Part shown: positions 1,939 through 16,523 of the stretch, in pieces
Position numbering within the stretch: position 1 is the stretch's first letter
How the letters are laid out: each line of letters opens with the position of its first letter
DNA from: a virus
Direction: 5' to 3' (one strand)
Virus record (IMG/VR): IMGVR_UViG_3300005525_000096
Span: 1 to 25,138 of that record
DNA length: 25,138 nt
Position numbers and translations under genes: made by a program
Notes under the pieces: model-generated
Databases searched by the model: none
Seen by the model: only the letters and a program-made list of their open reading frames with translations
Told to the model about the DNA's origin: nothing

Positions 1939-2311
1939 CCGGTTTCGGGGCCGCCGCCTTCACGCTTTCAAGGTCCGTCGTCACGATCATCGACTTGTCG
2001 CAAACCGTGATGACCTGGATCAGGATCACCCCGTCTCGCCACCCTGCCGGCTGGCCGCATCGAGCATGCGCGGCATGCATATCGACATGGGGAGGGCAGA
2101 TCAGGATCGATACCGGATTGCCGCTCCGGACGAGCTGCTGCGCCGAACCATGACGAGCCACGGTCCACGCCAAGGCCGCTTCGACTGCTCCCGCATATTC
2201 CTGCACGATCCGGTCCAGCAATGCCGCAGCCTCGCCTCTGAAGGGCTGCCGCGACAGGTCGATCTTGAGGTCTGCCAGCACGTCGCGCGCCTTGCGGTCC
2301 ATCCCCGTCAC
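1922..2311 (-). CDS. Hypothetical protein, last gene of the integrase operon
   Basis: 129 residues, start GTG at 2311 overlapping the integrase stop (GTGA); an ATG three codons further in (2302) is the alternative. The N-terminal part is helical and mixed-charge (DRKARDVLADLKIDLSRQ), the middle is Ala-rich, and the C-terminal half is more beta-like with several isolated Cys and His residues but no clear zinc pattern. No signal or membrane segment. Its stop lies in the GGTCACA repeat cluster. The overlap suggests co-translation with the integrase, so a role linked to integration is possible, but I do not recognise a family. Confidence 0.65.
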   Translation of the reverse strand: MTGMDRKARDVLADLKIDLSRQPFRGEAAALLDRIVQEYAGAVEAALAWTVARHGSAQQLVRSGNPVSILICPPHVDMHAAHARCGQPAGWRDGVILIQVITVCDKSMIVTTDLESVKAAAPKPAGSHV

Positions 2312-3663
2312 CCCGTCTGCTGGTCAAACCACGCCACGGCCGCGGCGATCGCCTGGTCGCCATAGTCCTTGTGCGCCACCAGGTAGTGCTTGAGAATGGC
2401 GTGGATCGTCACCAGCGAATGGCCGGTGACGGCGGCGATGCGGATGGGGTCGTTGCCGGCGCGGGCGAGCCAGGTGACGCAGGTGTCGCGCAGGTCCTGG
2501 TCGGTCAGGTCGGCCACCGAAGGCATCGGCTCGAGCGCCCATGAGGCGAAGCGGGGGCCGGCGATAATTTTCTCCGGCTCATCCGAGGCGACATGCAGGC
2601 CGCCGTCCTTGTCGCGCCAGATGCCGGCGGCCGCCGCCGCGCGGACGCGGGCGAACATGGCGGCATAGGTGGTGCCGTGGCTGAAGGGCTGGCGCGTCTG
2701 CGAATTGACCACCAGCGGCAGGTCGATCTCCTCCACCTTCCAGTCCTTGCGGCGGGTCTTGATGGCGGCGATGCGGGCGACCAGCTCCGGCGCCTGGGGG
2801 AAGTCGACGCGGGCCAGCGTCTTCTGCTGGCGCTCCACCACCCGGCCGGAGGCCATGTGGGCGGCGGTCATGGTGAGGCGATCGGCCTGGCGCTGGCCTG
2901 TCCAGACGCCGAGGATGGTCATGTCGCCGACCTCCGGCAGGGCGACGAGGGCGTGGTGGCCCTTGCGCTGGGTCGGATAGACCGGCAGCTCGGAGGCCGC
3001 CACCAGCTGGCGCAGCTCGGCCGGCGTCGCGGCCCGCAGGCGCGGCTCCGGCGTCTCCATGGCCAGATCCTTCGCAGGGTGGACGACGAGGCCCGGCACC
3101 TTGCCGGCGCGCATGGCCCATGACAGCACGACCGACATGGAGGCGAGGGCGGCGCGGGCGGTGGCAAGGCCGCGCTCGGCCCAGAGCGCCTCGTAGAGCC
3201 CGCGGCAATGGGGCTGGCGCAGCGCCGCCGCCGGGCCGTGGTAGAGGTCGGCGTCGGCCTCCTCGATGCGCAGCAGGCCGCGCCTGTAGAAATCCACCGT
3301 GGCCTTGGCCTTCGGCTTCGTGACGCGCTTGCCCTGCCGGCCGCCGGTGACGACGGGGGAGGCGAAATAGGCCTCGGCCAGGGTGCAGAGCGAGGGGCCC
3401 ATGTGGTTGCGCCGGATCTTCGCCAGCGCCTGGCGCGGGCGGGCGCGGCCGTCGGCGGCGGCGCGGTCGGCCTTCCACTGCTCGACCCAGGCGAGCGCCT
3501 CCTCGGCGGTGAACCAGCGGCCGTCCGGGTGTTTCATGTCCTCGCCCTTCACGCCATAGCGGCGGCGGGTTTCAGGACCGGGGGTGAAGCGCGGTCGGCC
3601 CCCCCGCCACGAGACGGAGGGGATGGTGATGGTGACTTTCGCCATGGTGCGTCGGCTCCGCAT
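2308..3663 (-). CDS. int: Tyrosine recombinase (phage integrase)
   Basis: Integrates and excises the phage genome at the tRNA-Lys site about 0.5 kb away. The 451-residue protein has an N-terminal arm-binding-like region (about 10-90), a core-binding helical region (about 95-205), and a catalytic domain. Catalytic residues visible: R258 in TGQRQAD, K281 in RQQKT, R392 in DQDLRDT, H415 in TGHS, and nucleophile Y427 in LKHYL. The His that normally begins the H-x-x-R box is Gln389 here; this position varies in the family. The start at 3663 is chosen because GAGGA lies nine bases upstream; ATG at 3645 (MAKVTITIP) is the alternative. It is fifth in a leftward operon of six small genes. The family call is secure. 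Confidence 0.95.
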   Translation of the reverse strand: MRSRRTMAKVTITIPSVSWRGGRPRFTPGPETRRRYGVKGEDMKHPDGRWFTAEEALAWVEQWKADRAAADGRARPRQALAKIRRNHMGPSLCTLAEAYFASPVVTGGRQGKRVTKPKAKATVDFYRRGLLRIEEADADLYHGPAAALRQPHCRGLYEALWAERGLATARAALASMSVVLSWAMRAGKVPGLVVHPAKDLAMETPEPRLRAATPAELRQLVAASELPVYPTQRKGHHALVALPEVGDMTILGVWTGQRQADRLTMTAAHMASGRVVERQQKTLARVDFPQAPELVARIAAIKTRRKDWKVEEIDLPLVVNSQTRQPFSHGTTYAAMFARVRAAAAAGIWRDKDGGLHVASDEPEKIIAGPRFASWALEPMPSVADLTDQDLRDTCVTWLARAGNDPIRIAAVTGHSLVTIHAILKHYLVAHKDYGDQAIAAAVAWFDQQTG

Positions 3664-5963: not shown

Positions 5964-5998
5964 TGCCGTTGACGGTTGGCCGCAAATCAGATTGACCT

Positions 5999-6012
5999 CT
6001 GCAAATATGCAG
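5999..6012. promoter_or_regulatory. Repressor/Cro operator between divergent genes
   Basis: Perfect dyad CTGCA-AATA-TGCAG, the same 5-4-5 layout as 4893-4906, in the 70-bp gap between the leftward repressor start (5963) and the rightward cro-like start (6034). ATGCAGAT is shared with both direct repeats at 4879-4912. A further TTGCAG half-site follows at 6014-6019. It is the natural operator for both divergent promoters. I could not place convincing -35/-10 boxes. Confidence 0.75.
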
Positions 6013-6033
6013 ATTGCAGGGGCCACCCTAGAC

Positions 6034-6249
6034 ATGAAGCCGATGTCAATCAAGCAGCGCGCTGCCAGAATTCGCCTGCCTTTGAAGGAGCTGGCGGCAC
6101 TGGCCGGCGTCTCCGAGGACAATCTGCACCGGGTGATCCGCGGGAATGTCGACCCGCGCGTCTCCACGGTGGAGAAGATCGAGGGGGCGCTGGCGGCCGA
6201 GGAAGAGCGCCTGCGCCGCGAGCTGGGCCTTGCCGGAGACGCGGCATGA
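6034..6249 (+). CDS. Cro-like HTH regulator
   Basis: 71 residues. Residues 4-40 form an XRE-type helix-turn-helix (LKELAALAGVSEDNLHRVIR), followed by STVEKIEGALAAEEERLRRE, the usual fourth/fifth helix. It is divergent from the repressor and first in the rightward early operon, the position of Cro. The start at 6034 is favoured because AGGGG lies about 10 bases upstream; ATG 6043 is possible, and an upstream frame start at 5992 would run through the operator. The stop overlaps the next start (ATGA). Expected to bind the CTGCA-N4-TGCAG operators and oppose the repressor. Confidence 0.82.
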   Translation: MKPMSIKQRAARIRLPLKELAALAGVSEDNLHRVIRGNVDPRVSTVEKIEGALAAEEERLRRELGLAGDAA

Positions 6250-6827
6250 TGGCCGCGCCGGGCAAATCAGCGACGGCACCGCTGCGCAGGCAAGTGTCTG
6301 TGTTAAGCGCTTCGCCCGCCTCGCCGCGCTCCATGGACGAGCTGCGAAAAAAAATCGAGGAGGCGGGGGCCTCTGTTGCGGCCGTCTGCCGCCGCGCCGG
6401 TGTGGACACGCCGCACTTCTATCGGACGGCCGCCGGCAAGAAGACCGCCTCCCGCTGGTTCATCCGCCGCTGCGAGCTGGCGCTGGACAGCCTCCTCTCC
6501 GGCGAGGGCATGCCGGCCGACCCCGGCGAGAACCACCTGCGCGCCCATTACCGCGCCTTCCAGCACCAGCTGGCCGAGGCGCTGGGCGCGGCCGGCGCCG
6601 ACCCCGACGACCGGCGGCCCACCGGCACCGCGGCGCTGGCGCGGCATGCGGCCTGGTATCTCCTTTCAACCGAATTCGCCGTGCGCCCGGCGCGGATCGC
6701 CGACCTGTTCGGCGTGACGCGCGCCGCCGTGACGCAGGCGCTGCAAGCCATCGAGGACCGGCGGGACGAGCCCGCCTTCGACGCCGCGCTCGAGACGATC
6801 GGCCGGCGCATCATGGGGAGGACGTGA
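6246..6827 (+). CDS. HTH protein with DnaA domain IV-like C-terminus
   Basis: 193 residues with two DNA-binding-like parts. Residues 30-84 look like an XRE-type HTH (ASVAAVCRRAGVDTPHFYRT). Residues 130-187 follow the spacing of DnaA domain IV: a helix like the iAmyL helix (RHAAWYLLSTEF), then ARIADLFGVTRAAVTQALQA, then IEDRRDEPAFDAALETI. The DnaA-box signature DHTTV is not conserved (TRAAV here), so specificity must differ. There is no AAA+ domain, so it is not an initiator ATPase. As the second early gene after cro, it may mark an origin or regulate early transcription. The ATG overlaps the cro stop. The domain IV call is by eye and moderately sure. Confidence 0.75.
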   Translation: MMAAPGKSATAPLRRQVSVLSASPASPRSMDELRKKIEEAGASVAAVCRRAGVDTPHFYRTAAGKKTASRWFIRRCELALDSLLSGEGMPADPGENHLRAHYRAFQHQLAEALGAAGADPDDRRPTGTAALARHAAWYLLSTEFAVRPARIADLFGVTRAAVTQALQAIEDRRDEPAFDAALETIGRRIMGRT

Positions 6828-7715: not shown

Positions 7716-8693
7716 ATGGCTTTGCGACCGATCATCCCGGTGGAGGACATCACCGTGCAGGCGGCGACGCCGGCGAACGACCGCGGCCCCGCGCCGCAGC
7801 TGCAGTGGCTGAAGATCGCCGACCTGGTGGTGGACGAGACCTATCAGCGGCCGATCGGCCGGGCCGGCCGGGCCAATGTCAAGGCGATCGCCGAGGGCTT
7901 CCGCTGGCAGTCCTTCTCGCCGGTCATCGTCTCGCCGATCGACGGCGGCCGCTTCGCCATCGTCGACGGCCAGCACCGCGCCACCGCCGCCGCCCTCTGC
8001 GGCATCGAGACTGTGCCCTGCCAGGTGATCCTCGCGACACCCGACGGGCAGGCGGCAGCCTTCGCCCAGATCAACGGCCGCACGACGTCGGTGCATTCCA
8101 TGTCGCTTTTCCGTGCGGCGGTGGCCGCCGGCGACCCGGCGGCGCTGGTGACGCAGTCGGCTGCGGACCGCGCCGGCGTGACGATCCTGCCCTATCCGAA
8201 GCCGGTGGCCGAGCAGAAGCCGGGTGAGACGATGGCCCATGGCGCCATCGGGCTGGCCGTGCGCGAGCATGGCGTCGACCTGACCGCGCTGGCGCTGAAG
8301 GCGATGCGCGGGCCGAACAACGACCACCGGGGCGTGCTGGTGGCGCCGCTCATCCGCGCCGTCTGCAGCGTGGTGGCGCAGCTGGCCAAGGCCGGGAAAA
8401 CGGCGGCCGAGATCCACGCGGCGATCGACAGGCTGCGGCTGGCGCGCGAGCTGGACAGCACCATGGTGGCGGCGCGCGAGAAGGGCCGACCGCTCATTCC
8501 GCTGCTGGCCGAGCGGCTGCTGCACCACGCCACCCGCACCCTCGAGGGCGGAGGCGTTGCGCCGCCGCTGGCCGTCCCGCCGAAGCCCGCCGCGGTGGTG
8601 CAGGCCGCAAGGCCGGTGGTGCCCAGCGCCCATGCCGAGGCGGTGGAGCGCGCCAAGGCGGCGGTGCCCAGCCGCATCGACAGCCTGCGCTGA
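7716..8693 (+). CDS. ParB-like nuclease/CTPase-fold protein
   Basis: 325 residues. Residues 30-110 form a ParB N-terminal-like domain: LKIADLVVDETYQRPI, VKAIAEGFRWQSFSPVIV, then the signature DGQHR (84-88), as in ParB/Srx-fold proteins. Residues 110-265 are helical (AQINGRTTSVHSMSLF), typical of phage ParB-like proteins with a helical middle, and the last 60 residues are Ala/Pro-rich. No ParA partner gene is visible nearby, so plasmid-type partition is unlikely. Phage members are usually linked to DNA binding, nicking or replication control. The start follows AAGGAGG. Family secure at fold level; biochemical role unknown. Confidence 0.82.
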   Translation: MALRPIIPVEDITVQAATPANDRGPAPQLQWLKIADLVVDETYQRPIGRAGRANVKAIAEGFRWQSFSPVIVSPIDGGRFAIVDGQHRATAAALCGIETVPCQVILATPDGQAAAFAQINGRTTSVHSMSLFRAAVAAGDPAALVTQSAADRAGVTILPYPKPVAEQKPGETMAHGAIGLAVREHGVDLTALALKAMRGPNNDHRGVLVAPLIRAVCSVVAQLAKAGKTAAEIHAAIDRLRLARELDSTMVAAREKGRPLIPLLAERLLHHATRTLEGGGVAPPLAVPPKPAAVVQAARPVVPSAHAEAVERAKAAVPSRIDSLR

Positions 8694-8697
8694 CATC

Positions 8698-9750
8698 ATG
8701 CCCGACCTGACCGTCGCCGCCATCAAGGACCTGCTGGTGCCGCGCCTGGCCGAGCTGCTGGTGCGGCTCGCGCCGGGCATGCGGCGGCATGGCGGCTACT
8801 GGCAGGGGCCGAACCCGACGCGGGCGAAGGACGGCAAGACCAGCTTCACCGTGTGGCACAACGGCGCCTGGAAGGAATTCGACAGCGGCGAGAAGGGCGA
8901 CATCATCGACCTGATCGCCTATTGCCGGCAGGGCACGCGCGGCCAGGCCATTGCCTTCGCCAAGGATTTCCTCGGCCTGCGCAACATGCCGGAGGCCGAG
9001 CGCCGGCGACTGGACGAGCAGGCCCGCGCCCGCGCCGAGAGGCACCGCAAGGCCGAGGACGACGAGCGCCAGGCGAAGCAACGCCGGGCCTTCGAGATGT
9101 GGCTGGCGGGCCGGCCGGTGACGCCGGCGAGCGTGACCGGCCGCTATCTCGCCGGGCGCGGCATTGCGCTGGCCGAGCTGGTCAATGCCGAAGGCGACCT
9201 GAAGGACAGCGCGGGGTCTCTGAAATACTGGGGCCCGCGCGGCGAGGGCGACCGGCCATGGCTGGGCCCGGCGATGCTGGCGCCGATCCGCCAGCTCACC
9301 GGCGAGATCCTCGGCGTTCACGCGACCTTCCTGAAGCCCGACGGCACCGGCAAGGCGCCGGTGCTCAATGCCAAGCTGATGCTGGGCCTGAAGCAGGGCG
9401 GCTTCGTGCGCCTGTCGCGGGGCGTGAGCGGGCTGCCCTTCGGCGACCTCGAGAAGGTGGGCCTTAGCGAGCCGCTGGTGCTGGGCGAGGGGATCGAGAC
9501 CTGCCTTTCCGTGGCGCTGGCGGTGCCGGAGGCGCGCGTCTGGGCGGCGCTGGACCTCGGCAACATGGCGACGCTGCAGCCGCACCCGGGCATCGGCCCG
9601 CTGGTGATCCTGAAAGAGAACGACACCAAGCCCGCGGCGATCGACCAGCGCCAGCGCGTGATGGACCAGCTGGCGGCCAAGGGCTTCGACATCCGGGAAA
9701 TGGTGCCGCCGGCCGGAAACGACTTCAACGACACCCTGAAGGAGGAGTGA
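8698..9750 (+). CDS. Toprim-domain primase-like protein
   Basis: 350 residues, probably primes phage DNA synthesis with the helicase encoded at 10787. The N-terminus (about 28-95) follows the DnaG CHC2-zinc-finger layout (FTVWHNGAWKEFDSGEKGD, then LIAYC) but lacks the zinc-binding Cys/His set. A charged linker (about 98-132) leads to a central domain. A Toprim domain at about 259-345 shows LGEGIET with E264, ALDLGNMA, and VILKENDTKPAA where DxD is usual (E307-N-D309), ending GNDFNDTLKE. This matches phage/plasmid Toprim primases of the DUF7146 type. No strong ribosome site is seen. The Toprim call is firm; priming activity is inferred. Confidence 0.85.
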   Translation: MPDLTVAAIKDLLVPRLAELLVRLAPGMRRHGGYWQGPNPTRAKDGKTSFTVWHNGAWKEFDSGEKGDIIDLIAYCRQGTRGQAIAFAKDFLGLRNMPEAERRRLDEQARARAERHRKAEDDERQAKQRRAFEMWLAGRPVTPASVTGRYLAGRGIALAELVNAEGDLKDSAGSLKYWGPRGEGDRPWLGPAMLAPIRQLTGEILGVHATFLKPDGTGKAPVLNAKLMLGLKQGGFVRLSRGVSGLPFGDLEKVGLSEPLVLGEGIETCLSVALAVPEARVWAALDLGNMATLQPHPGIGPLVILKENDTKPAAIDQRQRVMDQLAAKGFDIREMVPPAGNDFNDTLKEE

Positions 9751-10786: not shown

Positions 10787-12682
10787 ATGAGCCAGAAGGG
10801 CAAGAGCAACATCCGCGCGAGCTTCGCGGATGCGCTGGAGGGCCGCGTCTCCGTGACGCGGCGGCCGGACCCGCCGGCGGGCGACGACCGCCCGGTGGCC
10901 GAGGGCGGCTGGGGCTATGCCGCCAACCAGTGGGCCGGCGCGCCGGCCGACCGCATGCCGCCGGGCTGCCCTGTGATCGCGCTGGGCCGCGACGGCGAGC
11001 ACTACGTGTTCATGGACAGCATGGGCCAGCTGAACAAGGTGAAGCGCACGGAATGGTCGAAAAAGACCGTGCTGGACCTGTTCGCGGCCACCCCCAACTT
11101 TCCCATTCACCACTGGGCCCGCCTTTCGCCGCCGAAGAAGGGCGACGCGCAGTGGATCATCAACGGCATGGACGTGGACGACGCGGTGCAGTGCCTGATG
11201 CACGCCTGCGCCCTCGAGGGGGCCATTTCCATCGCCAACACGGTGCGCGGCCGCGGCGCCTGGACGGTGGGCCCGCTGGCGGCGCTGCCCGGCCAGGGCG
11301 AGCTGGTGTGGCATGGCGGCGACGGGATCTATCGCGTGCGGCGGGGCAAGCTGGAAAGCGCCGGCCCCTCGGCGATCGACGGCGTGGTCTATCCCGGCCG
11401 GCCGCCGGTGCTGGCGCCGTGGAAGGAGCCGGTGCCGGTGAAGGACAGCCCGGCCACCGAGATCTTCGGCTGGCTGAAGACGTGGAACTTCGGCCGCAAG
11501 GTGCTGGACCCGGTGCTGGTGCTGGGATGGATCGGCGCGGCGCTGCTGGGCGGCGCCTTGCCCTGGCGGCCCTATATCTTTCTCGTGGGTGACCGCGGCG
11601 TCGGCAAGACGACGCTGCAGAACCTGGTGCGCGCCGTCCTCGGCGACACGCTGCTGCGCACCGCCGACGCGACCGCACCGGGCATTCGCCAGATGCTGGG
11701 CGCCGACAGCCTGCCCGTGGCGGTGGACGAGCTGGAGGGCGGCGCCGACGACCGGCGCGCCACCGGGATCCTCGACCTGGCGCGCATCGCCGCCTCGGCC
11801 GACAAGGCGATCCGCGGCTCTTCCGACCATGAGGCGGTGAGCTTCACCATCCAGAGCGCCTTCATCTTCTCGGCCATCAACCCGCCGCGGCTGACCGTGG
11901 CCGACAAGAGCCGCATGGCCTTCATCACGCTGGAGAAGCTGGCCCGCAGCCGCAGCGGCAAGGAGCCGGTGATCAACGACCAGGCGGTGGGCCGCCGGCT
12001 GCTGCGCGCCCTGATGGACGCATGGGCGGCCGACGGCGACACCGCCGGCTTCGCCCGCACCTTCGAGAACTGGCGGGCGGCGCTGCGCGAGGCCGACATG
12101 GAGGACCGCGCCCAGATGACCTATGGCACGCTGCTGGCCCTCGCCGAGCTGATGCTGGGGCCGGAGGCGCTCGAGGAGCACGGCGTGCCGATCGCCGAGC
12201 CGGCCCGCCTCGGCCAATGGGTGCGCGAGCAGACCGTTTCCGAGCGCGCCGAGCAGCGGGCCAACTGGACGCTCTGCCTCGACCGGCTCTTCGCCCACAC
12301 GATTTCCGCCTGGCGCGACGGCGTGCAGCCGACCGTGGGCGAGGTGGTGGACGCCTACATGCGCGACGAGCCGAACATGGGGAAGGAGGGCGCCCAGGCC
12401 CGCCTGAAGCTCGCCGGCCTTTCGGTGAAGGAGGACGGCGCAGGGGACGGGCGGCGGCCCTATCTCGCCGTGCCGATCTCGGCCGAGCTGGGGCCCGCCC
12501 GCGCCTTCGAGGGGACGCAGTGGCAGGGCGGCGGCTGGGCCACGGCGCTGAAACAGGCGCCGCCGGAGATCGTGATCCGCGACAGACAGAACTGGCAGGT
12601 GATGAAGATCAACGGCCGGGCTGCGCAGTGCCTGATGGTGGATTTGCTGGCGCTGGAGAGCGCAGGGAAAGAGGAGGAATAG
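10787..12682 (+). CDS. Replicative helicase/ATPase (SF3/AAA+ type)
   Basis: 631 residues. The ATPase core is at about 225-400: Walker A GDRGVGKT (268-275), Walker B VAVDE (311-315), sensor Asn N365 in FSAINPP, and a likely arginine finger R376 in DKSRMAF. This fits the phage/plasmid D5/P4-alpha/VapE-like helicases that pair with a primase. The N-terminal 200 residues (with a GGWGYAANQWAG stretch and a beta-rich middle) are not recognised. The C-terminal 230 residues are helical with a possible winged helix. With the primase gene 1 kb upstream, it likely unwinds DNA at the phage origin. The ribosome site is weak (GAAAG); the stop abuts the next start (TAGATG). Confidence 0.88.
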   Translation: MSQKGKSNIRASFADALEGRVSVTRRPDPPAGDDRPVAEGGWGYAANQWAGAPADRMPPGCPVIALGRDGEHYVFMDSMGQLNKVKRTEWSKKTVLDLFAATPNFPIHHWARLSPPKKGDAQWIINGMDVDDAVQCLMHACALEGAISIANTVRGRGAWTVGPLAALPGQGELVWHGGDGIYRVRRGKLESAGPSAIDGVVYPGRPPVLAPWKEPVPVKDSPATEIFGWLKTWNFGRKVLDPVLVLGWIGAALLGGALPWRPYIFLVGDRGVGKTTLQNLVRAVLGDTLLRTADATAPGIRQMLGADSLPVAVDELEGGADDRRATGILDLARIAASADKAIRGSSDHEAVSFTIQSAFIFSAINPPRLTVADKSRMAFITLEKLARSRSGKEPVINDQAVGRRLLRALMDAWAADGDTAGFARTFENWRAALREADMEDRAQMTYGTLLALAELMLGPEALEEHGVPIAEPARLGQWVREQTVSERAEQRANWTLCLDRLFAHTISAWRDGVQPTVGEVVDAYMRDEPNMGKEGAQARLKLAGLSVKEDGAGDGRRPYLAVPISAELGPARAFEGTQWQGGGWATALKQAPPEIVIRDRQNWQVMKINGRAAQCLMVDLLALESAGKEEE

Positions 12683-13416: not shown

Positions 13417-13500
13417 CAACCTGACGCCCCGCGCCCCGTCATGGGTGCGAAGCGTCTTCCGCGTTCTCCCTGCCCCGGCCCGCTGGGGGTTCAAGCGGAC

Positions 13501-13552
13501 CGCGCCGGGTTGCTCCGGATCGGCCTCGACCACGGCCGATCCGGCCGGCGCG
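13501..13552 (+). terminator. Large two-part GC hairpin after the early operon
   Basis: Inner stem: CCGGATCGGCC (13515-13525) and GGCCGATCCGG (13534-13544), 11 bp perfect with an 8-base loop. Outer stem: CGCGCCGG (13501-13508) and CCGGCGCG (13545-13552), continuing the helix after a 6-base one-sided bulge. There is no T run, so it is a possible transcription stop or barrier rather than a classic intrinsic terminator. It lies about 85 bases after the last early gene. Confidence 0.5.
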
Positions 13553-13610
13553 GGCAGTTAACGCGGGCTGGACCGTGCATCAATGCAAGGGGTGGCGACA
13601 GGTGCCGCGC

Positions 13611-13850
13611 GGCGGTTAGGAGCCTAACCGCCATGTAACCGGGCCGTAACCGGGAAACCGCAGCAACATCAACGGGTTAGGGTGGCGGTTACAGGGTTAT
13701 GGCCTTTCGCGCGCGCGTCACGTGCGTGTGTATCGCGTATGCATGCGCATGTGAGGGCGGTGTCTATAACCCTATAACCCTATAACCGGAGAGGTTAAGT
13801 CTATGAGAATGCAGGGGATTTCCGGTTAGTGGCGGGTTATGCGGCGGTTA
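13611..13850. repeat. Phased TAACC/GGTTA repeat array (candidate ori or terminase site)
   Basis: Fourteen copies of GGTTA or its complement occur in about 240 bp. Forward GGTTA starts at 13614, 13675, 13687, 13695, 13793, 13824, 13835 and 13846; TAACC starts at 13625, 13636, 13647, 13767, 13775 and 13783. Two triplets are spaced exactly 11 bp (13625/13636/13647 and 13824/13835/13846) in opposite orientation near the two ends. The central triplet is an 8-bp tandem, TATAACCC twice then TATAACCG (13765-13788). GGCGGTTAGG and CCTAACCGCC (13611-13632) form a 10-bp inverted repeat. Helical phasing suggests cooperative binding of one protein, as in iterons or terminase-binding arrays. Confidence 0.85.
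13708..13753. other. Alternating purine-pyrimidine run (Z-DNA prone)
   Basis: 46 bases alternate pyrimidine and purine with only two phase breaks (at 13718/13719 and 13733/13734), starting as CG repeats and continuing as GT/GC/AT steps. Such runs can flip to Z-DNA or melt under negative supercoiling. It sits in the middle of the repeat array, between the left and right TAACC/GGTTA groups. Confidence 0.6.
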
Positions 13851-13925
13851 CATGGGCCGCCGATCATGCGCCGGGTGCATGGCTCGCGAGGGCCAAGGGA
13901 TTGAATATGCGAGGGAAATCGGCCG

Positions 13926-14561
13926 ATGGCCAACCGCCTGCCAGCTGACGACGCCGAGGGGTCCGTTTCCGGGGCCGAACAGGGCGCACACGCGGGGATT
14001 TCCCAGCGGGAGCCGGCCGGCGGCAACGTCCAGGCCGTGGCCGACCAGGCGGCGGCCGACCATCTCGCCTTCGAGGACGGGCTCGACGGTTTCAGCGGGC
14101 AGGCGATCGCGCCGCCGGCCAAGCGCGGGGCAGGGCGCCCGGCCGGATCGCCGAACCGGGCGACGTCCAAGGTGCGGGAATATCTGCTGGCGCGCGGCTA
14201 TCGCGACCCTCTGGAGCAGGCGGCGGCGCTGGTGACGGCCGATCCGCGCGAGCTGGCGGCGAAACTCGCGAACAAGGCGCCGCAGCTGGTGACCTTCGGC
14301 GAGGCGCTGGCCGTCCTGGCCGAGCAGGGGAAGGCGAGGGGGCAGCTGCTGCCCTACTTCCACCAGGAGATGCCGAAGCCGAAGGAGCCGGAGCGCGAGG
14401 TTGAGAGACATTTCGTCGTCATCGTCGACAGCCCCGAGAAAGCGCAGCAGGTTCAACGGGTTATCGATGCGCGGGCGAACCCCTCACAAGGCGAGGCCGA
14501 CGACTGGCTCTCTGAACCCGTTGTGATCACTGACGAATTCCGTGTGAGGGACCATGATTGA
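13926..14561 (+). CDS. Terminase small subunit-like protein
   Basis: 211 residues. After a disordered, Ala/Gly/Asp-rich N-terminus (1-65) comes KRGAGRPAGSPNRATSKV (66-83), the basic GRPxGSxN motif common near the DNA-binding start of phage small terminase-like proteins, then helices (REYLLARGYRDPLEQAAAL and APQLVTFGEALAVLAEQ) and a charged C-terminal part that may bind the large subunit. It would recognise the packaging site and load DNA onto the motor. The ribosome site GAGGGAA precedes the ATG. Direct adjacency to the large terminase and to the repeat array supports the call; the family is inferred rather than proven. Confidence 0.7.
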   Translation: MANRLPADDAEGSVSGAEQGAHAGISQREPAGGNVQAVADQAAADHLAFEDGLDGFSGQAIAPPAKRGAGRPAGSPNRATSKVREYLLARGYRDPLEQAAALVTADPRELAAKLANKAPQLVTFGEALAVLAEQGKARGQLLPYFHQEMPKPKEPEREVERHFVVIVDSPEKAQQVQRVIDARANPSQGEADDWLSEPVVITDEFRVRDHD

Positions 14562-14859
14562 AAATCACGTGCTCCACCTCGGCCGCCTGGCCCCGCGCGT
14601 TCCGCCCGCGCTCGCGGGTGCGCGCATGCCCCCCCGCCCCCTCGCGCGCCCGCCCGCGCCCGCCCGCGCGCGCGACCTCGAAAAACCGGCCCCGGCCCCC
14701 CCTCCCCGGGGGGTGCTCCAGCACACTCACCGCCGATCGAAAGGTCGCCCTCGGCCGGGGCGGGGCGGGCGGTCCATCGGGCTCGGGCAAGGGGCGCGGG
14801 GGCCGGGCGGTCCCGGTGCGCCGATCATCCGGGCGGCGGGCCAGCGGGGGCGGGCATGA
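14554..14859 (+). CDS. Possible Pro/Arg-rich protein between terminase genes
   Basis: 101 residues starting eight bases inside the small terminase gene and ending with a TGA that overlaps the large terminase ATG (ATGA). Both junctions look like the coupled junctions elsewhere in the window. The sequence, however, is low complexity (Pro/Ala/Arg then Gly/Arg), and at this GC level open frames arise by chance in several frames. Translation may be real mainly to couple the terminase genes. Treated as doubtful. Confidence 0.3.
   Translation: MIENHVLHLGRLAPRVPPALAGARMPPRPLARPPAPARARDLEKPAPAPPPRGVLQHTHRRSKGRPRPGRGGRSIGLGQGARGPGGPGAPIIRAAGQRGRA
14575..14855. other. Extreme-GC linker with strand-asymmetric C and G runs
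   Basis: Between the terminase genes the left half is C-rich (tracts near 14629-14640 and 14693-14707) and the right half G-rich (GGGG at 14757-14760 and 14762-14765, GGG at 14767-14769, and more to 14855). The G runs could form a quadruplex on the plus strand and the C runs one on the minus strand. CG-alternating stretches (about 14643-14675) lie between. Composition this unlike the neighbours suggests a DNA-level role, for example a packaging site, rather than ordinary coding. Confidence 0.5.
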
Positions 14860-16523
14860 CCGACATCCTCACCTCGGGCGAAAAGCTGTCCAGCCGCCAG
14901 CTCGAAGATCTGATGAATTCCTATCGCGGCCTCGGCGAGACGCCCTTCCGCATGCCTCAGCAGGCCACCTTCTCGCTCGGAACCTACACGCCGCCGGGCC
15001 CGGTCTGCGGCGCCTATATCCGCTCCGAGGGGCCGATCGACGCCATCATGGGCCCCGGCGGCTCCGGCAAGACGATCGGCAGCGCCTTCAAGGCGGTGCG
15101 CTTCGTGGTGAAGCTGATGCCGATCTGCCTCGACGGCGTGATCCGCGGCAAGGTCACGGTGGTCCGCGACAACTACCGCCAGCTCTACAAGTCCACCCTG
15201 CAGAGCTGGTTCCACTGGTTCCCGACCACGCGCCACCCGGACTTCTCCGGCGGTCAGGACCGCCCCGGCACGCACCGGCTGAAGCTGATGACCTATCGCG
15301 AGATCCGCGGCGTCATGCGCGAGGTGAAGGTCGACCTGCAGGTGGAGTTCTTCGCCATCGCCGATATCGACTATGAGTTCGCCTTCAAGTCGTATGAAAC
15401 CAGCTACGCCTGGCCCACCGAGGCCGACAGCCTGCCGCCGGCGTCCATCCCGTTCTTCTTCTCGCGCACCGGCCGCTATCCCTCGCTGGACCTGCTGCCC
15501 GACGAGGTGCGCGCCCTGGACGAGCCGCTGCCCCGCGCCCTCGGCTGGGACATGAACCCGCCGCCGCCCAAGCATCCGACCCTTGTGGCGGCCCAGCGCG
15601 GCTCCTTCCGCGAGGACTTCGACCCGGCGAAGGACCGCCGCACCATCAACTTCTTCGTCCAGCCCTCCGGCCTCGCCGAGAACGCCGAGAACCGCGCCGG
15701 CAAGACCCGCCGCGCCTACGAGCTCGAGCTCGAGGTGATGCCGAAGGACGACGCCCGCCGCATGGTGCTCGGCCTGCCGGGCCGCGTGAAGGACGGCCTG
15801 CCGGTCTATGACGAGGACTTCGACCGCGAGAAGCATGTCGCGCCGTCGGCCATCGAGATCCTGCCGAACGTGCCGCTGCATCTCGGCTTCGACCAGGGCG
15901 GGCAGTCGGGCGGCGCCGGCCAGCCGGCCGTCGTCGGCTTCCAGGTCGCGCCGAACGGGCAATATCGCGGCGTTCTGTCCATCGCCACCAAGCCGGGCAC
16001 CGGCGCCGAGCGCTTCCTCGACCAGCTGGTGCCGGTCCTGCGCGGCCGCTTCCGAAACGTGCCGCCGGGCGTCTGGACGGGCGACCCCGCGGGCTTCATG
16101 GGCGGCGACAAGGTCTATGGAACGCTGTCATGGTTCGAGATCGTGCAGCGCACCCTCGGCCACCGCATCGATCCGGCGCATACCCAGCAATGGACCGAAC
16201 GGCTCGAGGCGCTCGGCACGCTCATGCGGCGCGACATCAGCCGCGACACGCCGCGCCTTCTCCTGTGCCCCATTCATTGCGGCCCGCTGATCGAGGCGCT
16301 GGCCGGCGACTTCAAGTTCGGCAAACGCCACGACGGCACCTATGACCCGCTGCCGGTCAAGAACATGGCGGCCAACGTGGCTGAAGCCGCGCAATATGTC
16401 TGCCTCGGCCTGCAGGGGCTCGCCGGCGTGGCGGGCATGATCACCAACTCCTTCAACCCCTCCAACGTCCATTCCCTCACGCCCCGCGCCGTCGTGCAGA
16501 CGGGCGACTGGCCGGTGTTTTGA
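14856..16523 (+). CDS. terL: Terminase large subunit (packaging ATPase/nuclease)
   Basis: 555 residues. Motor ATPase: Walker A GPGGSGKT (66-73), with WPTEAD (186-191) as a likely Walker B/catalytic Glu region. RNase H-like nuclease: first acid D346 in LGFDQGG and second D410 in WTGDPAGF, with a third likely in the C-terminal PVKNMAANVAEA region. It cuts concatemeric DNA and pumps it through the portal. Length is close to T7 gp19 (586). The ATG at 14856 overlaps the preceding possible frame; no strong ribosome site is seen other than the G-rich leader. It is followed by a TGATG overlap. Confidence 0.92.
   Translation: MTDILTSGEKLSSRQLEDLMNSYRGLGETPFRMPQQATFSLGTYTPPGPVCGAYIRSEGPIDAIMGPGGSGKTIGSAFKAVRFVVKLMPICLDGVIRGKVTVVRDNYRQLYKSTLQSWFHWFPTTRHPDFSGGQDRPGTHRLKLMTYREIRGVMREVKVDLQVEFFAIADIDYEFAFKSYETSYAWPTEADSLPPASIPFFFSRTGRYPSLDLLPDEVRALDEPLPRALGWDMNPPPPKHPTLVAAQRGSFREDFDPAKDRRTINFFVQPSGLAENAENRAGKTRRAYELELEVMPKDDARRMVLGLPGRVKDGLPVYDEDFDREKHVAPSAIEILPNVPLHLGFDQGGQSGGAGQPAVVGFQVAPNGQYRGVLSIATKPGTGAERFLDQLVPVLRGRFRNVPPGVWTGDPAGFMGGDKVYGTLSWFEIVQRTLGHRIDPAHTQQWTERLEALGTLMRRDISRDTPRLLLCPIHCGPLIEALAGDFKFGKRHDGTYDPLPVKNMAANVAEAAQYVCLGLQGLAGVAGMITNSFNPSNVHSLTPRAVVQTGDWPVF

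Follow-up and report, generated by a model that had tools for sequence, protein, structure and literature searches.

What is the function of a two-sided array of short repeats that lies between the replication and the terminase genes of a phage? An earlier note on this DNA had proposed an origin or a terminase site. The window, by which we mean the whole stretch of 25,138 nucleotides that was analysed, comes from a phage record in IMG/VR. A 36,462-bp contig identical to the window overlaps its own end by 70 bp, and the genome is therefore, as assembled, a circle of 36,392 bp. Its genes run from lysozyme through a divergent left region and an S24-type repressor on the minus strand to the early genes, which encode the HTH/DnaA-IV-like protein F6, a ParB-like protein, a primase, the helicase F2 and GapR; these are followed by the array, terS, terL, portal and capsid. 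The array thus does lie between replication and terminase genes, with the replication genes, GapR and a small ORF on its left and the small and large terminase on its right. In a DNA similarity search against named phages, the GapR gene was the sole match, and a search for TerL in bacterial genomes returned 505 pattern matches, none of them a confirmed relative. The genes on which the argument turns are:

8557-9750, plus strand: Toprim/DUF7146 primase, the likely partner of F2; its start codon is possibly downstream of 8557.
10787-12682, plus strand: F2, the proposed initiator, a 631-aa AAA+ helicase (phrog_21086) with a P-loop at about residues 268-276.
13926-14561, plus strand: putative small terminase (TerS), assigned by position and family conservation and without a profile match.
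14856-16523, plus strand: large terminase (TerL).

The array comprises 14 TAACC/GGTTA elements at 13614-13850, where about 0.9-1 would be expected by chance; 2,000 dinucleotide shuffles of the region gave a mean of 0.96 elements and a maximum of 6. The remainder of 13417-13925 contains other conserved blocks and zero elements. With the elements labelled as putative iterons, the parts of the array are:

13614-13651, no strand: left outer cluster, GGTTA at 13614 and TAACC at 13625, 13636 and 13647, with 11-bp steps throughout; kept in the relatives L003, L006 and L065.
13652-13674, no strand: left spacer arm from outer to inner iterons, AT-enriched across the family and weakly so in the window.
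13675-13699, minus strand: left inner iterons, GGTTA at 13675, 13687 and 13695, with 12- and 8-bp steps.
13700-13766, no strand: centre, containing the alternating purine-pyrimidine tract 13708-13753.
13767-13797, plus strand: right inner iterons, TAACC at 13767, 13775 and 13783 (8-bp steps) and an inverted GGTTA at 13793.
13824-13850, minus strand: right outer iterons, GGTTA at 13824, 13835 and 13846, with 11-bp steps.
13762-13821, no strand: candidate unwinding element, the 60 bp of lowest stability in the 36,392-bp circular genome.

The element count, the two opposed 11-bp triplets, the octamer tandem and the 10-bp inverted repeat that the earlier note had described were all found as claimed. 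TAACC 13625/13636/13647 and GGTTA 13824/13835/13846 are the only triplets at 11-bp steps that any 5-mer forms in the window. The octamer tandem, TATAACCC at 13765-13788, corresponds to the right inner iterons, and the inverted repeat, GGCGGTTAGG-AG-CCTAACCGCC at 13611-13632, is formed by the first two left outer elements. The reported 46-base alternating run does extend over 46 nt (13708-13753), but phase breaks at 13719 and 13734 divide it into runs of 11, 15 and 20. The unstable segment 13762-13821 has a stability of -1.261 kcal/step (genome mean -1.67, sd 0.084), coincides with the AT-rich peak, and overlaps the right inner tandem and its arm.

Absence or scrambling of the array in close relatives had been named beforehand as a ground for refutation; the comparison was made, and the array is kept. 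The TerL proteins of L003 and L006 are 65-67% identical to that of the window, and both TerL and F2 of L065 are ~65% identical (tblastn). The element positions recur in all three, with 14 of 14 retained in L006, one lost in L003 and most present in L065. Across these diverged relatives the element bases match at 69/70, 70/70 and 64/70 positions, and the spacers at 57-67%. The spacings of L006 equal those of the window except for a centre 9 bp longer, and the centre is the only part of the array that changes length in close relatives. Together, the shuffles and the conservation of the elements rule out chance repeats.

The same layout extends through the family. Profile searches with TerL and F2 gathered ~100 loci, and the array was present in 78/78 F2-bearing contigs that reach the relevant region (80 F2 loci in all). 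After dereplication to 63 arrays, 52 passed a strict test of symmetry, and several of the other 11 apparently failed only by a centre of 47-49 bp. The inner tandems of the dereplicated arrays have a step of 8 bp and the outer clusters steps of 10-12 bp, most often 11. The centre measures 53-78 bp in most; an AT profile over 60 arrays revealed two AT-rich arms between the inner and outer sets. This geometry is kept while the element word varies (GGTTACC, GGTTGAC, GGTAGAC, AATTAG, TGTAAC, GAGACA, AGACAC, TGGAAC, GGGACA and others). A search for the array pattern in bacterial genomes found none.

Which protein, then, follows the word? Two loci provide a natural swap: L058 carries GTTAC and L045 carries AATTAG, at element positions that agree to within 2 bp in the left half of the array and differ by as much as ~14 bp in the right, and DNA similarity returns ~25 bp past the last element. 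Across this swap TerS is 91% identical, TerL 94%, primase 96% and F6 85%, and F2 is 56% identical. When the word is the same, as in L058 and L047, F2 is 84% identical, TerS 69%, and primase and F6 70%. The swapped block holds other, variable genes, and the pair alone therefore does not single out F2; F2, however, turned up in the swapped block of all loci of sufficient length, which holds for no other gene. A family-wide partial Mantel test (63 loci), in which word similarity was measured crudely as shared 6-mers, associated F2 with the word given TerL, TerS and primase (r=0.214, p=0.001), and TerL kept a weak residual link (r=0.174, p=0.002). Given F2, no association with the word was detected for TerS (p=0.145). 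Within F2, the C-terminal third correlated best with the word (0.467). By these sequence comparisons, word changes track F2 and not the small terminase. It is this family-wide test, together with the plasmids described below, that singles out F2.

Arrays also occur beside F2 homologues, confirmed as such by profile E-values, on elements without a related terminase. On the Arsenophonus linear plasmids pArsFIN16, paNv_CAN17 and paPv15, an F2 homologue is directly followed by 13-14 elements in the same layout; no TerL is annotated on pArsFIN16, on paPv15 or on the half of paNv_CAN17 that was examined, and the annotated small terminase of paPv15 lies far from its array. In Roseobacter phage-plasmids (Phaeobacter, Leisingera), a looser array of 7-8 copies is found directly 3' of F2 and not at the terminase, and the terminase and head genes are unrelated to those of the window phage. 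Twelve elements lie directly 3' of the F2 homologue in the Atlantibacter element pLH84-a-B (L152), which encodes an integrase, an HTH protein, a fused primase-Rep and terS in a PICI-like order, and 12 lie directly 3' of the primase-helicase of Bdellovibrio phage phi1422. F2-like proteins without such an array directly downstream were encountered in PBb001 and Acjo_20. As separate observations, L152, a 19-kb recorded 'plasmid', looks like a Gram-negative PICI, and the array of paPv15 (L155, 3154-3450) is AT-rich and nearly symmetric, with 4 outer and 2 inner elements, a centre, and 2 inner and 4 outer elements. At 7.9 kb, the linear plasmid paPv15 offers a compact experimental model of the proposed origin.

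F2 gave zero matches to Pfam and NCBIfam. Its AlphaFold model (mean pLDDT 77) resembles SCCmec Cch, SaPI5 Rep, NrS-1 and D5-type helicases in Foldseek, all at low TM-score; the matches to 5dgk and 7ola have E-values of 1e-9 to 1e-6 and a TM of about 0.3-0.4. The likeness to SaPI Rep and Cch is thus structural only, with no sequence or Pfam match. The C-terminal domain (~residues 471-631), the proposed DNA-binding part, is modelled confidently (pLDDT 92.5) with a winged-helix-like order of elements. Foldseek found no significant match for it in the PDB and a single one among viral models, an 838-residue protein equal in length to phi1422 gp23 and, judged by that length, probably gp23 itself; the phi1422 array sits just downstream of gp23.

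The conserved geometry, the words that follow F2, the co-occurrence with F2 where no related terminase is present, and the instability minimum lead us to conclude that the array is very probably the replication origin of the phage, and its elements iterons to which the C-terminal domain of F2 would bind. The origin half of the original proposal is supported, and the terminase half is not. In the mechanism that we infer, each 5- to 7-bp element would be recognised by the C-terminal domain of F2. The elements form two mirror-image sets, whose outer clusters, at 10-11-bp steps, share a helix face and whose inner tandems, at 8-bp steps, face each other over a centre of 50-100 bp. F2 would bind directly, assemble as two facing hexamers, melt the weakly paired 13762-13821 around the right inner tandem and its left counterpart, and unwind outwards; the Toprim primase (8557-9750) would prime and the host polymerase extend. 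At the origins of SV40 large T antigen and papillomavirus E1, opposed short pentamers or hexamers position two helicase hexamers. Those origins share with the array short elements in opposing orientation and differ in that an N-terminal domain recognises them; the helicase family and the hosts are also others. The SV40 and papillomavirus comparison has also been drawn in PMC7581432.

The best reading of such an F2-bound origin, as far as sequence comparison goes, is an organisation like that of SaPIs and PICIs. SaPI Rep uses its C-terminal domain to bind iterons located 3' of its own gene, and it apparently does so as two hexamers (PMC7581432). Every PICI origin contains an AT-rich region with a set of iterons on either side (PMC6092414). 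As in those origins (PMC6092414; PMC7581432), two sets of short iterons here flank a central region downstream of the helicase gene, iteron sequences differ among elements, and terS can come after the origin; the self-loading Rep helicase with its iteron-recognising C-terminal domain likewise resembles the role proposed for F2. There are also differences. The present arrays are found on apparently complete temperate phages, phage-plasmids and linear plasmids; their iterons are nested (inner 8 bp, outer 10-11 bp); F2 does not match the solved Rep structures in sequence; and GC-rich members have an alternating purine-pyrimidine centre in place of an AT-rich one. In the window the centre is 63% GC and the arms are AT-rich, and in AT-rich relatives the centre is itself AT-rich. 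F2 directly adjoins the array in the plasmids and phi1422; in the window the two are 0.93 kb apart, separated by GapR and two small ORFs (phage median 1,025 bp). Because the window centre is not AT-rich and the homology of F2 to Rep is structural only, we do not claim outright membership in the SaPI/PICI type. In SCCmec, Cch2 is likewise a helicase whose C-terminal domain binds 5-nt iterons (AAGTG) 3' of its gene, but these number only three and lack the two-sided layout (PMC7581432).

More tentatively, and with somewhat more doubt than confidence, the arrays could represent a widespread class of origin: on an unchanging geometry, the recognition domain of the initiator helicase and a dozen iterons would change their code in concert, so that each phage has a replication password of its own, shutting out related phages, prophages and satellites. 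If the origin reading holds, a large phage group and several plasmids would be built on one plan that links satellites with ordinary phages. The pairs of F2 domain and word would be a natural resource for studying DNA recognition by such initiators, and they hint at reasons for coexistence or exclusion among relatives.

A point against an origin pure and simple is that phage arrays almost always end ~50 bp before terS, which origins do not need. The adjacency leaves room for a second role, and the F2-bound origin might also mark the start of packaging or of late transcription of the terS operon. Such a dual site contains the origin reading, so confidence in the two overlaps; we consider it rather unlikely. 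The array constantly adjoins terS in phages while its distance to F2 ranges from 22 to 4,183 bp, but in phage-plasmids, phi1422 and the linear plasmids it sits by F2 instead. Cumulative GC skew has a peak, not a minimum, near the array (14,475), and the skew difference between an early and a late gene across relatives is small; GC skew was therefore treated as uninformative.

A packaging site alone, pac- or cos-like, at which TerS would bind the two-sided array and the terminase would cut its centre, is highly improbable. At P1 pac, PacA binds a two-sided array and the terminase cut falls in the centre. The present arrays resemble P1 pac in being two-sided, made of short elements and placed beside a small-terminase gene (median 51 bp from array end to terS in 58 phages). 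However, the elements do not co-vary with the small terminase as those of a terminase site would, since TerS stays 91% identical despite a complete change of word and contributes nothing beyond F2, and arrays occur beside F2 homologues where TerL is unannotated or the terminases are unrelated. On these two grounds packaging was rejected as the main function. Moreover, the interval from terS to terL contains a separate conserved, GC-rich block (14554-14800) that could serve for packaging.

Nor does the F2-bound origin have a serious competitor in an operator or partition site for F6 (5976-6827), the ParB-like protein or GapR, which is very unlikely although all three are phage-encoded candidates for DNA binding. 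F6 is 85% identical across the swap and, like the primase, has no association with the word beyond F2 (63 loci); GapR was not found in L012, L042 and L045, all of which have arrays; and the ParB-like family occurs in only 6/26 loci by the gene clustering used. Of the four binders that the earlier note had named (these three and the small terminase), none fits, and F2, the indicated one, was not among them. DnaA boxes are not in excess, with 4 one-mismatch matches in the window against 4.75 expected, so the array does not qualify as a DnaA-type origin.

It is equally hard to credit that function resides chiefly in a Z-DNA element, with the repeats secondary. The alternating purine-pyrimidine centre is real, with a run of at least 14 nt in 41/52 centres against 0.5% of control windows. 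Yet a long unbroken tract is not common to all members: that of the window is broken twice, and in the Arsenophonus plasmids, phi1422 and Atlantibacter the centre is A/T-rich with short TATA runs only, so Z-DNA is not required. The iterons, moreover, are fixed while the length and sequence of the centre vary.

Several further features of the genome were observed. Upstream of the array, a block at 13420-13600 with the motifs GCGCGGGCA[G/C]TTAACGCG and GTGCATCAATGCAAGGG is kept in three close relatives and partly in distant ones; it is possibly the promoter or terminator of the early operon. Conservation in L003 and L006 is strong for the block at 14554-14800, a candidate cos/pac site that shows CCCCCTCCCCGGGGGGTGC and then a CACACTCAC-type tract; the 101-aa ORF within it is rich in proline and arginine and is possibly not a gene. 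F6, encoded opposite the S24-type repressor, combines an N-terminal HTH with a C-terminal DnaA-IV-like HTH, and the recognition region of the former diverges strongly among otherwise close relatives. Finally, 1632-1714 matches the alphaproteobacterial sRNA suhB/mmgR in Rfam (52.8 bits), ~0.6 kb from a 451-aa minus-strand ORF (2308-3663) at whose place relatives show a weak tyrosine-recombinase match, and this sRNA gene may be the integration site of the phage.
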